Shown here: piece by piece, positions 6,273 through 63,263 of the stretch
Numbering within the stretch: position 1 is the stretch's first letter
Layout of the letters: each line of letters begins with the position of its first letter
Origin: Latilactobacillus sakei
GTDB taxonomy: Bacteria > Bacillota > Bacilli > Lactobacillales > Lactobacillaceae
Assembly: GCA_002953655.1 (NCBI GenBank)
Contig: CP025839.1
Location: forward strand, 930,001-994,000
DNA length: 64,000 bases
Direction: 5' to 3'
Translations under genes and position numbers: made by a program
The notes under the pieces: generated by a model
The model's database searches: none
Seen by the model: the letters and a program-made list of their open reading frames with translations, nothing else
Told to the model about the DNA's origin: nothing

Positions 6273-6284
6273 CATAGTTAAATA

Positions 6285-6514
6285 TCAATGACCGCGTAAT
6301 GAGTAGAGACTAAGCCGCTATATCAGAGAGCTGGGGTTGCTGGAAACCAGTATATGCTTGGAATCGAATTACAATACGCTAAGTGGTCAGACGTGTGATT
6401 GACGTACCAATCAATGAGTGATGCTAGGTAACTAGCATAATTCGGGTGGTACCGCGAACTTAAATTTTAAGTCGTCCCTGTAATCTTCTCACGAGGATTA
6501 TGGGGACTTTTTTT
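6285..6514 (+). promoter_or_regulatory. T-box leader (tRNA-Tyr sensing) of tyrS
   Basis: The leader contains the T-box core GGGTGGTACCGCG (6444-6456), which pairs with the 3' end of uncharged tRNA. It is followed by a terminator (GTCCC... / ...GGGGAC with a T run at 6508-6514) that the antiterminator would displace. Upstream, a stem I-like region carries AGAGAG and GGTTGCTGGAAACC. Tyr codons TAC at 6370-6372 and 6375-6377 are candidate specifier codons. A T-box before tyrosyl-tRNA synthetase is the expected arrangement in Firmicutes. Confidence 0.93.
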
Positions 6515-6535: not shown

Positions 6536-7795
6536 ATGCAAAAGAATATTATTGATGAATTAACATGGCGCGACGCGATTAACCAACAAACAGATGCTGA
6601 CGGGTTACGCGAATTAACTGAAAAGAAGAGTATCTCATTATACTGTGGGGTTGATCCTACTGGCGATAGTATGCATATCGGGCATTTAATTCCCTTCATG
6701 ATGATGAAACGTTTCCAATTGGCTGGTCATCACCCATATATCGTTATCGGTGGGGGAACAGGTTCAATCGGTGATCCAAGTGGTCGTAAATCAGAACGTC
6801 AACTCCAAACAATGGAAATGGTTCAACATAACGTTGAAGCTTTATCGGGCCAAATGAAACGGTTATTCGGCACGGATGCTAACGTTTCAATGGTTAACAA
6901 CTACGACTGGTTATCAAAAATTTCATTGTTAGATTTCTTACGTGATTACGGTAAGTTATTTAACATCAACACAATGTTGGCTAAAGACGTGGTTGCTAGT
7001 CGTTTAGATGTTGGGATTTCATTTACTGAATTCACCTACCAAATCTTACAATCAGTCGATTTCATGCACCTTTACAAAGCACACGATGTGCAACTACAAA
7101 TCGGGGGTGCTGATCAATGGGGTAATATCACTTCAGGGATCGATATGATTCATAAAATTGAAGGTAGCGAAACAGAAGTCTACGGCTTAACAATTCCATT
7201 GATGCTCAAGGCTGATGGAACGAAGTTTGGTAAGACAGCTGGCGGTGCCATCTGGTTAGATCCTGAAAAGACAACCCCATACGAATTCTACCAATTCTGG
7301 TTAAACCAAGATGACCGGGATGTCGTTAAATACTTGAAATACTTCACTTTCTTAGATGAAGCTGAAATTAACGAACTCGCTAAAACAGTTGAAACAGCCC
7401 CTGAAAAACGGGTTGCCCAACGTCGCTTAGCTGAAGAAGTAACGCGTTTTGTGCATGGCCAAGCTGAATTAGAAGGGGCCCAAAAGATTACGGAAGTGCT
7501 TTTCTCAGGCGATATCAAAGCCTTAGATGTCAAAGAAGCAGAACAAGCCTTCCAAAAAGCACCAACAGTTGAAATCACAGCTGAAAAGAAAAATATCGTT
7601 GATTTCTTAGTGGACGCTGGGATTGAATCATCAAAACGACAAGCACGTGAAGATGTGCAAAACGGCGCCATCACAATTAACGGTGACCGTCTCCGCGAAA
7701 CAACCCTTGAAATTGACCCAAGCGAAAACTTCGAAGGTAAATTTGTCATTGTCCGTCGCGGCAAGAAAAAATACTTCTTGGCAAGAGTAAAATAG
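6536..7795 (+). CDS. tyrS: Tyrosyl-tRNA synthetase
   Basis: Charges tRNA-Tyr with tyrosine in the cytoplasm. The start is the ATG at 6536, preceded by TAGGAGGG; an upstream in-frame start at 6500 falls inside the T-box terminator and is rejected. The 419-residue product has the class I signature HIGH (about residue 47), KFGKT (about 230, the KMSKS equivalent), and an S4-like RNA-binding domain in the last 70 residues. The preceding T-box controls it. No terminator lies directly after it: the mRNA probably runs through four tandem hairpin repeats to the terminator at 8292. Confidence 0.97.
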   Translation: MQKNIIDELTWRDAINQQTDADGLRELTEKKSISLYCGVDPTGDSMHIGHLIPFMMMKRFQLAGHHPYIVIGGGTGSIGDPSGRKSERQLQTMEMVQHNVEALSGQMKRLFGTDANVSMVNNYDWLSKISLLDFLRDYGKLFNINTMLAKDVVASRLDVGISFTEFTYQILQSVDFMHLYKAHDVQLQIGGADQWGNITSGIDMIHKIEGSETEVYGLTIPLMLKADGTKFGKTAGGAIWLDPEKTTPYEFYQFWLNQDDRDVVKYLKYFTFLDEAEINELAKTVETAPEKRVAQRRLAEEVTRFVHGQAELEGAQKITEVLFSGDIKALDVKEAEQAFQKAPTVEITAEKKNIVDFLVDAGIESSKRQAREDVQNGAITINGDRLRETTLEIDPSENFEGKFVIVRRGKKKYFLARVK

Positions 7796-7796
7796 A

Positions 7797-7910
7797 AGTG
7801 CGTTTGAAACGGTTTGACTCTGAGCATTAACATAATTTGGCGAATTAGCGATGAAATCGCTGATTTGACAAATGTCGTTAAGCACAGGAGTCAGTTTCAA
7901 AAAGCACGTT
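7797..7910 (+). repeat. Intergenic hairpin element, copy A (array unit 1)
   Basis: Starts 2 bases after the tyrS stop. Outer stem GTGCGTTTGAAAC / GTTTCAAAAAGCAC with inner GACTC / GAGTC, then conserved GAGCATTAA / GTTAAGCACAG, then central stem AGCGAT / ATCGCT. It is followed by the A-rich linker that precedes unit 2. Confidence 0.85.
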
Positions 7911-7920
7911 AAATAAAGTG

Positions 7921-8037
7921 AGTGCTGACTCGAGTTGGTTAGGCTTCGAGGATTAACGGTAAAATGGGTATTATGGCGGTTCTTGCCATAATACCCATTT
8001 TGCAGTTAACCGGAAAAGGCTACTCGAGAAGCACGTT
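7921..8037 (+). repeat. Intergenic hairpin element, copy B (array unit 2)
   Basis: Same ends (GTGC ... GCACGTT), with an outer stem containing CTCGAGT / ACTCGAG and a second helix using GTTAAC. The centre is replaced by a perfect 17-bp stem, 7961-7977 with 7985-8001. This copy is the most divergent in sequence but keeps the architecture and length. Confidence 0.8.
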
Positions 8038-8047
8038 AAATAAAATG

Positions 8048-8162
8048 AGTGCGTTCAAGCTTGGTCAACTTTTGAGCATTAGCACAGGGAAGCGAATTAG
8101 CGACACAGTCGATGATTTGATTCACAGCGCTAAGCGCAGAAAGTTAGCTTGGAAAGCACGTT
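8048..8162 (+). repeat. Intergenic hairpin element, copy C (array unit 3)
   Basis: Closest to copy E at 14450. It shares GAGCATTAGCACAGGG, GCGAATTAGCGAC, GATTTGATTCACAG and GCTAAGCGCAGAAAGTTAG. The ends are GTGC and GCACGTT, and an A-rich linker separates it from unit 4. Confidence 0.85.
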
Positions 8163-8172
8163 AAAATAAAGA

Positions 8173-8291
8173 AGTGCATTTGGTTGCGGTTAGCAACTGA
8201 GCATTAATAAAAAATCGGCAGTAATCTAGGTTTTAGGATTACTGCCGATTTTAGTAGATTAAGCGGAGGTTGTTGCAACCAAAAGCACGTT
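8173..8291 (+). repeat. Intergenic hairpin element, copy D (array unit 4)
   Basis: GTGCATTTGGTTGC pairs with GCAACCAAAAGCAC. The conserved box GAGCATTAA faces GATTAAGCGGAG. The centre is a perfect 16-bp stem, 8211-8226 with 8237-8252. A factor-independent terminator begins directly after it. Confidence 0.83.
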
Positions 8292-8339
8292 AAAAATCAC
8301 CCCTAACCCTCTTTACGAGCGTTCAGGGGTGATTTTTTT
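8292..8339 (+). terminator. Terminator after the tandem repeat array
   Basis: AAAAATCACCCCT (8292-8304) pairs with AGGGGTGATTTTT (8325-8337), followed by T residues. It probably ends the tyrS transcript, so the four repeats would be in its 3' untranslated region. Confidence 0.85.
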
Positions 8340-14449: not shown

Positions 14450-14564
14450 AGTGCGTTTCAAGCTGGTTAGCTTTTGAGCATTAGCACAGGGGAGCGAATA
14501 AGCGACAAGGTCGCTTATTTGATTCACAGGGCTAAGCGCAGAAAGTTAGCTTGAAAAGCACGTT
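14450..14564 (+). repeat. Intergenic hairpin element, copy E
   Basis: A textbook copy, 114 bp from GTGC to the final GTT. Outer stem GTTTCAAGCT / AGCTTGAAA, TTAGC / GCTAA second helix, and a perfect central stem AATAAGCGAC / GTCGCTTATT. It lies 5 bp after the mtnN stop. Confidence 0.88.
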
Positions 14565-14573
14565 AAAAAAAGA

Positions 14574-14634
14574 AGTGTGTTTGAAACGGGATGACTCTGA
14601 GCATTAGCACAGGGAAACAAATGAGCGACCGAGT
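14574..14634 (+). repeat. Intergenic hairpin element, copy F (5' half only)
   Basis: GTGTGTTTGAAACGG, GACTCTGAGCATTAGCACAG and AAATGAGCGAC match the 5' half of the other copies. The 3' half is absent: the sequence passes straight into a terminator stem. It is separated from copy E by the usual A-rich linker, so this was probably a two-unit array that lost its end. Confidence 0.75.
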
Positions 14635-14667
14635 AAGTCTAGCTTTGATGCTAGGCTTATTTTTTTG
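14635..14667 (+). terminator. Terminator after the mtnN repeats
   Basis: AAGTCTAGC (14635-14643) pairs with GCTAGGCTT (14650-14658), loop TTTGAT, with a T run at 14660-14666. Confidence 0.85.
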
Positions 14668-25369: not shown

Positions 25370-25483
25370 AGTGCGTTGCCAGTGGTTAGCTTGCGAGCAT
25401 TTGCCTAATCAGACGAATTGCCGACAAAGTCGGTGATTTGACTGATGTAGCAAAGCACAGCAAGATACTGGCAAAAGCACGTT
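25370..25483 (+). repeat. Intergenic hairpin element, copy G, inside the lar operon
   Basis: GTGCGTTGCCAGT pairs with ACTGGCAAAAGCAC, CTTGC with GCAAG, and the centre is CCGAC / GTCGG. It keeps GAGCATT, GACGAATT, GATTTGAC and AAGCACAG. It lies between larC2 and larD, co-directional with both, and ends 10 bp before the larD ribosome site. Confidence 0.85.
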
Positions 25484-47250: not shown

Positions 47251-47366
47251 AACGTGTTATTCACACCAACTTTCTGTACTTTACGAGACTTGTCAAACCG
47301 GCGTCTTTGACGCCAATTCGCCAAGTAGCGTAAATGTTCAAAAGTAACCCGGTGTGAATAACACTC
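47251..47366 (-). repeat. Intergenic hairpin element, copy I (reverse orientation)
   Basis: Read on the minus strand it has GTGTTATTCACACC / GGTGTGAATAACACGTT outer arms, GAACATTTACG / CGTAAAGTACAG, GGCGAATTGGCGTC / GACGCCGGTTTGAC. Length and boxes match the plus-strand copies. It lies against the direction of both neighbouring genes, unlike all other copies. Confidence 0.82.
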
Positions 47367-50681: not shown

Positions 50682-50795
50682 AGTGTGTTTCACCCGGGTA
50701 TATCCTGAGGATTAGCATAGTATGGCGAATAAGCGCTGTAAGCAATTATTTGGCATACGTCGCTAACCGGAAGGATATAGGTGAAAAAGCACGTT
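50682..50795 (+). repeat. Intergenic hairpin element, copy H, between acpP and fabD
   Basis: GTGTGTTTCACC pairs with GGTGAAAAAGCAC, and TATATCCT with AGGATATA. The conserved boxes GAGGATTAGC, GGCGAATAAGC, ATTTGGC and GCTAACCGGA are kept. It begins 3 bases after the acpP stop and ends 25 bp before the fabD ribosome site. Confidence 0.85.
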
Positions 50796-63082: not shown

Positions 63083-63263
63083 TTATTTCTAACCTCCTTG
63101 AGATCCTTAGTTTTTTATTCTGGGAAGTTTCCGAACCAGTCCAAGCGGGGCTTAGGCGCTTGATTTCAAATGCACCATTTCATGATAACGTGTAGCGGGC
63201 ATCCTGTAAATAGAAGACGTTAAGATCGATTTGAAAAAAATTAAATAACTTAGTAAATTTGAG

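Follow-up and report, generated by a model that had tools for sequence, protein, structure and literature searches.

What is the role of four long hairpins that stand head to tail between a tRNA ligase gene and its terminator? This question is raised by the tyrS locus of Latilactobacillus sakei, which lies in the window, i.e. the whole stretch of 64,000 nucleotides analyzed here. We followed it from the four units at tyrS to the genome, to related species and to the elements that such repeats could be compared with.

Four hairpin units lie between tyrS and its terminator

An earlier note on this DNA had described behind tyrS four hairpin units with start-to-start distances of 124, 127 and 125 nt. 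A covariance model and folding both confirmed these units, which are about 113 nt long and arranged head to tail. The upstream gene was verified as tyrS by its match to TIGR00234 (E 1.5e-126), and the sequence bears out the location of the array between the stop codon and the terminator as well as the GTGC at the start and the GCACGTT at the end of each unit. The perfect central stems claimed for two of the units are also present, with 17 bp in unit 2 (sequence and fold) and 16 bp in unit 4 (inverted-repeat listing). Units 1 and 3 had been described as having a short central stem only; the stem is there, but the fold shows pairing over the entire length. Each of the four units folds as a single long hairpin, and for every one of them none of 200 shuffles folded as well as the real + strand. 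The covariance model was built from 21 copies picked by eye, fold and pattern. Since the four tyrS units are among these copies, the folding test is the independent evidence and not the E-values of the model given in Table 1.

The start codon of tyrS was picked by eye behind AGGAGGG, whereas the ORF as listed begins at 6500. The T-box leader upstream scores below the gathering score of RF00230 and is therefore missed by a default Rfam search. In the remaining window five further copies were located. The nine copies counted previously thus comprise eight full units, each on its own strand, while the ninth at 14575 turned out to be a truncated 5' half.

Table 1. Coordinates of the tyrS locus and of the other hairpin units in the window.
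Feature	Position	Strand	Remarks
T-box leader of tyrS	6279..6482	+	RF00230, 76.7 bits, E 4.1e-17, gathering score 93
tyrS, tyrosine--tRNA ligase	6536..7795	+	stop TAG at 7793-7795; TIGR00234
Hairpin unit 1	7798..7910	+	2 nt after tyrS stop; E = 4.3e-33, fold z -8.6
Hairpin unit 2, long perfect central stem	7922..8037	+	E = 1.4e-19, fold z -9.3
Hairpin unit 3	8049..8162	+	E = 6.5e-28, fold z -4.5
Hairpin unit 4, long perfect central stem	8174..8291	+	E = 4.4e-20, fold z -9.5
Terminator hairpin after array	8292..8339	+	13-bp arms 8292-8304/8325-8337, T run to 8339
Single full unit	14451..14564	+	6 nt after stop of methylthioadenosine/SAH nucleosidase gene
Truncated 5' half unit, then terminator-like hairpin	14575..14640	+	by eye, end approximate
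Full unit	25371..25483	+	2 nt after stop of LarC2-like gene, 22 nt before next ORF
Full unit	47251..47364	-	no same-strand gene directly upstream
Full unit	50683..50795	+	3 nt after acyl carrier protein gene stop, 35 nt before next ORF

The units themselves do not have the form of intrinsic terminators: they end with GCACGTT followed by A-rich sequence, and at tyrS a separate terminator follows. With the families of Rfam 15 they share a conserved RNA fold with compensatory changes. Over the array all Rfam families stay below their gathering scores (best chance-level match E 0.13, with E values up to 5 considered), which agrees with the earlier statement that no described family fits, and a known RNA family was rejected on this ground. 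The sole Rfam match above gathering score in the whole window is a PreQ1 riboswitch at 63101-63145 on the minus strand.

Covariation and strand bias indicate a folded single strand

The outermost part of a unit consists of the GTGC/GCAC ends, which elsewhere also read GTGT/ACAC, GCGT/ACGC or GAGT/ACTC. Next inward is a stem of about 8 bp without fixed sequence, followed by a bulge on the 5' side (GGTTA-like) and a second free stem of about 7 bp. Innermost, the fixed collar TGAGCATTARC / GYTAAGCGCAG encloses a central stem that is again free in sequence. The loci from other species were fetched by a pattern inside this collar, so that its conservation there is partly due to the way the loci were selected.

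The set from other species comprises 138 model matches in 80 listed loci, three of which belong to L. fuchuensis of the same genus; loci L157-L196 were left out of the model search. All 138 matches were used for the covariation count. In this set 93.8% of the cells are paired, compared with 63.4% after shuffling and 35-41% after sliding, and 40 of the 43 pairs show two-sided changes. The corresponding values for 94 copies from the L. sakei genome are 95.7% and 70.2% (shuffled), with two-sided changes in 38 of 43 pairs. Both alignments were fitted to the model and are hence biased towards structure. An ungapped set of 44 copies agrees with them: a column tally gave 1451 Watson-Crick, 180 G.U, 50 A.C and 211 other cells, with 80 of the G.U cells contributed by three columns that are mostly G.U.

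Strand and position counts in other species were based on 124 matches that remained after 14 of the 138 had been removed by hand (cut, short, weak or opposite-strand). Using RNA parameters, the + strand gave the better fold of the two strands in 93 of 94 copies from L. sakei and in 119 of 123 copies from other species, with one tie among the 124. With DNA parameters this holds for all 94 and all 124 copies; in both comparisons the copies are related and the counts therefore not independent. When G.U pairs were forbidden, the 1x1 mismatches within stems were G.T in 90, A.C in 27 and other in 131 cases in L. sakei, and 114, 26 and 152, respectively, in the other species. Strand bias and mismatch counts together indicate that a folded single + strand, either RNA or single-stranded DNA, is kept and not a double-stranded palindrome.

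The units belong to an abundant family with a patchy distribution

The covariance-model search that the earlier note had suggested was carried out and found the family in Latilactobacillus and in other lactobacilli. The 2.10 Mb genome that contains the window has at least 143 matches at E <= 0.01; because 150 of 1060 candidates were scored, the genome-wide copy count is a lower bound. Six matches were dropped (four opposite-strand shadows and two short weak ones), and the 137 units kept form 87 arrays, with the tyrS array as one of them. Most arrays are single (56), the others double (17), triple (9) or quadruple (5), and 46 of the 50 linkers between units have a length of 9-12 nt.

Among 60 relatives, with 62 candidates scored per genome, 16 have matches, including all five other listed genomes of the genus. 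Scoring of 25 candidates per genome in 151 Lactobacillaceae genomes revealed matches in 61 of them, distributed over 16 of 40 genera, and none in the remaining 90, which makes this a patchy family. Among 398 genomes drawn from the class, with nine candidates scored in each, only the L. sakei genome and G046, a member of another family of the order, had matches. The two matches in G046 (locus L063) are weak, with E values of 5.0e-6 and 7.3e-6, and the one that was read has a family-like fold. A pattern scan has Levilactobacillus, Lapidilactobacillus, Paucilactobacillus, Loigolactobacillus and Companilactobacillus among the matches listed, and also Lactiplantibacillus fabifermentans and Latilactobacillus fuchuensis.

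One copy is located on an 18-kb plasmid of L. curvatus. Two other 'plasmid' records of this species (L250 and L251; CP117684.1 and NZ_CP016468.1; 592 and 220 kb) look like pieces of the chromosome, with groEL and mutS, and eno and gap, as chromosome-like content. A phage collection searched with the tyrS array as query gave no match, and a phage origin was rejected on this basis.

Most arrays examined in L. sakei begin directly behind stop codons

The flanking sequence was sufficient for 57 of the 87 arrays of the L. sakei genome with regard to terminators and orthology, and for 56 with regard to gene placement. None of these 56 arrays is situated wholly inside an ORF of at least 80 codons. 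Behind a gene on the same strand are 46 of them, and 38 of these begin 1-12 nt after the stop codon; the other 10 do not follow a same-strand gene. Between co-directional genes 28 arrays run along the genes and 8 are opposed to them, convergent gene pairs hold 18 arrays and divergent pairs 2. In a second pass allowing shorter ORFs we found 41 stop-proximal arrays, which follow TAA in 34 and TAG in 7 cases. Of the 57 arrays, 33 have a terminator-like site at most 200 nt downstream, and for 27 of these the T run is no farther than 90 nt away. Such a site precedes 6 of the 57 arrays at a distance of up to 90 nt. The first units have a common 5' boundary with G at position -2 in 42 of 58 and A at position -1 in 55 of 58 cases.

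Stop-proximal placement is weaker in other genera than in L. sakei. Among 103 arrays from the listed loci of other species, 59 are behind a same-strand gene and 17 behind an opposite-strand gene, 15 are too near the end of the locus, and 12 fall within an ORF of 84-227 codons that was called mechanically (6 in Levilactobacillus, 4 in Lapidilactobacillus and 2 in Lactiplantibacillus). About a third (34 of 103) start no more than 15 nt after the stop codon that ends an ORF of 70 or more codons. Lapidilactobacillus shows no orientation bias, with 9 arrays on the same and 10 on the opposite strand. The Levilactobacillus arrays fall into 14 of 34 that are at most 9 nt away from a stop codon and 20 at a distance of 48 nt or more, and many of the distant ones follow right after the T run of a terminator. 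Many Levilactobacillus copies (L079, L081, L082, L100, L151 and others) also have another conserved sequence of about 45 nt just downstream (TCGGAAGCTGCCAG..GGGATATA..GGCGAGAGC-like), which may extend the element on its 3' side or accompany it as a separate one.

The genes upstream of the arrays are diverse. A scan of 40 of the 41 genes upstream of arrays in L. sakei turned up tyrS, thrS, argS, leuS, groEL, eno, rplL and rpsN as well as acpP, glmS, glmM, pta, transporters and unnamed genes. In the other species 29 of the 34 upstream genes were scanned, with alaS, rpoC (in two species) and phosphoketolase among them. Four of the 40 scanned genes in L. sakei code for tRNA ligases (tyrS, thrS, argS and leuS), and alaS was found in another genus. 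This share of tRNA ligases looks to be above expectation.

Sites persist while whole units are gained and lost

In G005, the nearest relative, tyrS is followed by three units; the first resembles unit 3 of the window and another one resembles unit 2. In two further genomes of the genus (G003 and G004) there are no units behind tyrS. From G005 400 kb were fetched, which contain 28 arrays with both flanks, and 24 of the 28 segments are at least 100 nt long. Compared with L. sakei, 8 of the 28 segments are equal in length within 20 nt, and the others differ, several by approximately whole units. Ten of these loci were read. The extra units are often unlike their neighbors, some copies have internal deletions, and two sites are without a recognizable unit.

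In comparison with L. curvatus, five of six comparable sites keep element-like sequence after the same stop codon, one of the five truncated, and the units at the kept sites differ by eye. Two L. curvatus strains were also compared over a 200-kb stretch, in which nearly all long collinear blocks are more than 99% identical. One array differs by exactly two units (248 bp), and this difference is among the three breaks and the indels listed; the comparison covers the collinear blocks, with the unaligned gaps between them left out. Hence sites persist between relatives and whole units are gained and lost.

A clean new insertion was found neither between L. sakei and G005 nor between the two L. 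curvatus strains. What these comparisons did show were arrays differing by whole units, along with internal deletions and regions that had been replaced. By eye no target-site duplications were seen at the tyrS locus, at the ten loci compared with G005 and at one L. curvatus locus, none of which offers a clean single-insertion site. Tandem duplication as the sole source of the arrays is insufficient, as neighboring units are often unlike and the extra units in G005 are heterologous; these heterologous units are explained equally well by insertion and by differential loss from ancestral arrays that were longer. In another genome (G002:C1:795918-796276) three adjoining units have identical scores at a spacing of 123 nt, a pointer to recent tandem duplication.

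Sequence divergence was determined for 28 orthologous units of L. sakei and G005. Differences were found at 92 of 2390 paired and at 54 of 786 unpaired positions, and as a reference at 127 of 1608 positions in the 80 nt downstream and at 244 of 2495 third codon positions. The stems therefore diverge at about half the rate of the adjoining noncoding DNA, which suggests that they are held in place by selection, with the qualification that only units of at least 82% identity were accepted as orthologous and conserved ones are favored by this threshold. In one-sided changes, the state exchanged with a Watson-Crick pair was G.U in 38 cases, A.C in 19 and a mismatch other than A.C in 22. Just three pairs changed on both sides while staying Watson-Crick.

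Transposition and RNA decay genes in carrier genomes

A Y1 transposase (PF01797) was searched for in six Latilactobacillus genomes. G000 (the genome of the window), G001, G002, G003 and G005 gave no match and G004 a sub-threshold one. RAYT/IS200-type mobilization was therefore rejected for present-day Latilactobacillus. The same six genomes contain no match to a reverse transcriptase (RVT_1), and mobilization by such an enzyme was rejected likewise.

We also considered a link to the loss of PNPase or Rho. Among 37 sampled Lactobacillaceae PNPase is missing in 36 and Rho in 32, in carriers and non-carriers alike, and the carrier from the other family, G046, has both proteins. Neither of them separates carriers from non-carriers, and the link was rejected.

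The units may act at the 3' ends of messages

Tentatively, with a probability of roughly 0.4, we interpret the units as REP-like repeats that are kept as RNA structures at the 3' ends of messages, where they would counter 3'-to-5' decay and may influence the termination of translation. This reading is based on the fold and its covariation, the strand preference, the placement in L. sakei, the persistence at sites and the slower evolution of the stems. For a folded transcript that comes directly after the coding part of a gene and ahead of its terminator, a role as a device of the 3' end is the best reading. The units would be transcribed as the first part of the 3' untranslated region of the gene and would fold into a hairpin of about 110 nt. 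Placed 1-12 nt after the stop codon and in front of the native terminator, this hairpin would most likely shield the coding part from 3'-to-5' exonucleases and thereby lengthen the lifetime of the message. Tandem units may strengthen the block, and units could be lost or gained through recombination between their short shared ends. Contact of the hairpin with the ribosome as it terminates is a further possibility. In E. coli, ribosome stalling or an effect on translation is reported for REPs located no more than 15 nt from a stop codon (PMC12306157, where reference 17 is the original study). Several points count against an RNA device. The variability of the stems is likewise compatible with a mobile element whose movement depends on its fold, and a folded single strand of DNA is stabilized by G.T pairs as well. 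The patchy distribution, the weaker placement in other species, the 10 L. sakei arrays that do not follow a same-strand gene and the lack of a link to PNPase or Rho loss also weigh against it, as do, in orthologous units, the 22 changes involving mismatches other than A.C and the small number of two-sided changes.

The main rival regards the units as selfish mobile elements of the non-autonomous kind, similar to MITEs or REPs, with a hairpin that serves their own movement and no benefit for the host; the placement at stop codons and terminators would result from the purging of insertions elsewhere and from a preference for A-rich TAA/TAGA-like sites. The high copy number, the patchy spread in 16 of 40 genera, the copy on the 18-kb plasmid, the heterologous extra units in G005, the common 5' boundary of the first units, the fold kept across genera and the weak gene orientation in Lapidilactobacillus are all in line with this explanation, and we hold it to be possible. 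More difficult to reconcile with a selfish repeat are the six Latilactobacillus genomes without a Y1 match above cut-off or a reverse transcriptase match, the sites inspected, at which no target-site duplication was seen, and the clear differences between relatives, which consist of whole units inside arrays and not of clean new insertions at single sites. The slower divergence of orthologous stems, about half that of the adjoining noncoding DNA, also argues against it.

A more far-reaching form of the RNA reading is unlikely. Here the family would be a device common to the Lactobacillaceae, in which stop-proximal arrays cap core messages and the number and kind of units tune message lifetime or termination, with fast turnover of units at sites that are kept. 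The core messages would be those of tRNA ligases, groEL, eno and ribosomal proteins, in hosts that are mostly without PNPase and Rho.

The distance of 1-12 nt from the stop codon, together with the precedent of E. coli REPs within 15 nt of it (as described in part of PMC12306157), would also suit a hairpin that slows the terminating ribosome and lowers the output of the gene. We consider this effect by itself improbable: eno, groEL, rplL, rpsN, acpP and four tRNA ligase genes are located upstream of arrays and would be expected to need high output, and many Levilactobacillus copies are far from stop codons. Regulated cis-acting RNAs, such as attenuators or ligand-binding RNAs, or the release of sRNAs derived from the 3' UTR are quite improbable as explanations. 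The conserved unpaired positions and the collar in the genera seen and the 4 tRNA ligases among 40 scanned upstream genes would speak for them; against them, up to four heterologous units stand behind one gene, the upstream genes are unrelated and no Rfam family matches. Least credible is a feature of double-stranded DNA such as nucleoid, gyrase or replication-protein sites that need the palindrome as DNA, because the units are indeed palindromic and dispersed with conserved boxes, but for a symmetric site neither the strand asymmetry nor the orientation with the upstream gene (28 versus 8 arrays in L. sakei) is expected.

Comparison with known repeat families

Among known repeats the E. coli REP is the nearest working analogue of the device proposed here. 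REP and BIME elements, known from Enterobacteria, Pseudomonas and others, are high-copy extragenic palindromes that are often behind genes, with a share within 15 nt of stop codons (PMC12306157). The units resemble them in being extragenic and frequently placed within 15 nt of stop codons, at 1-12 nt in 38 of 56 L. sakei arrays. They differ in size, as REP and BIME elements have 20-40 bp according to a section of PMC3733652 and the units about 113 nt. The same source states that GTAG REPs often supply the TAG stop codon (PMC3733652). REPs have a GTAG or CGTC tag; at the A-rich 5' boundary of the units, with GA at -2/-1, no GTAG tag was seen. Furthermore, the tandem units have one orientation here, and a cognate TnpA-REP (Y1/HuH) transposase was not found above cut-off in the six Latilactobacillus genomes.

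EFAR elements are palindromic and modular, have a length of about 170 bp and are inserted at hairpins near gene ends. They fold as two hairpins and are built of modules, and by this description the units would be set apart from them. EFAR of enterococci is listed among the bacterial MITEs in a passage of PMC3733652. Another MITE, the RUP of S. pneumoniae, has 107 bp and 108 copies, and most such MITEs are characterized by terminal inverted repeats with TA ends and by target-site duplications, with RUP tied to an IS transposase (all from part of PMC2229807). RUP and other MITEs (ERIC, NEMIS) are similar to the units in size and copy number. They may differ in their target-site duplications, none of which were seen at the inspected unit loci, where a clean empty site is lacking.

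Searches of the literature in open-licence papers, including searches aimed at REP and EFAR, found no description of this repeat family. We file the units as a new family within the known kind of high-copy extragenic hairpin repeats, with EFAR set apart by its described form. The family is distinct in size, polarity and tandem habit and, in L. sakei, in its placement at stop codons.

With at least 137 units in one genome, the family would count as a very common structured element in lactic acid bacteria, one that Rfam lacks. How has a repeat reached such a number in a genome that gave no match to a Y1 transposase or a reverse transcriptase? The differing numbers of units behind orthologous genes in close relatives represent a natural test of how 3' hairpins adjoining stop codons affect the decay of messages and the termination of translation, and this test set is found in bacteria that are mostly without PNPase and Rho.
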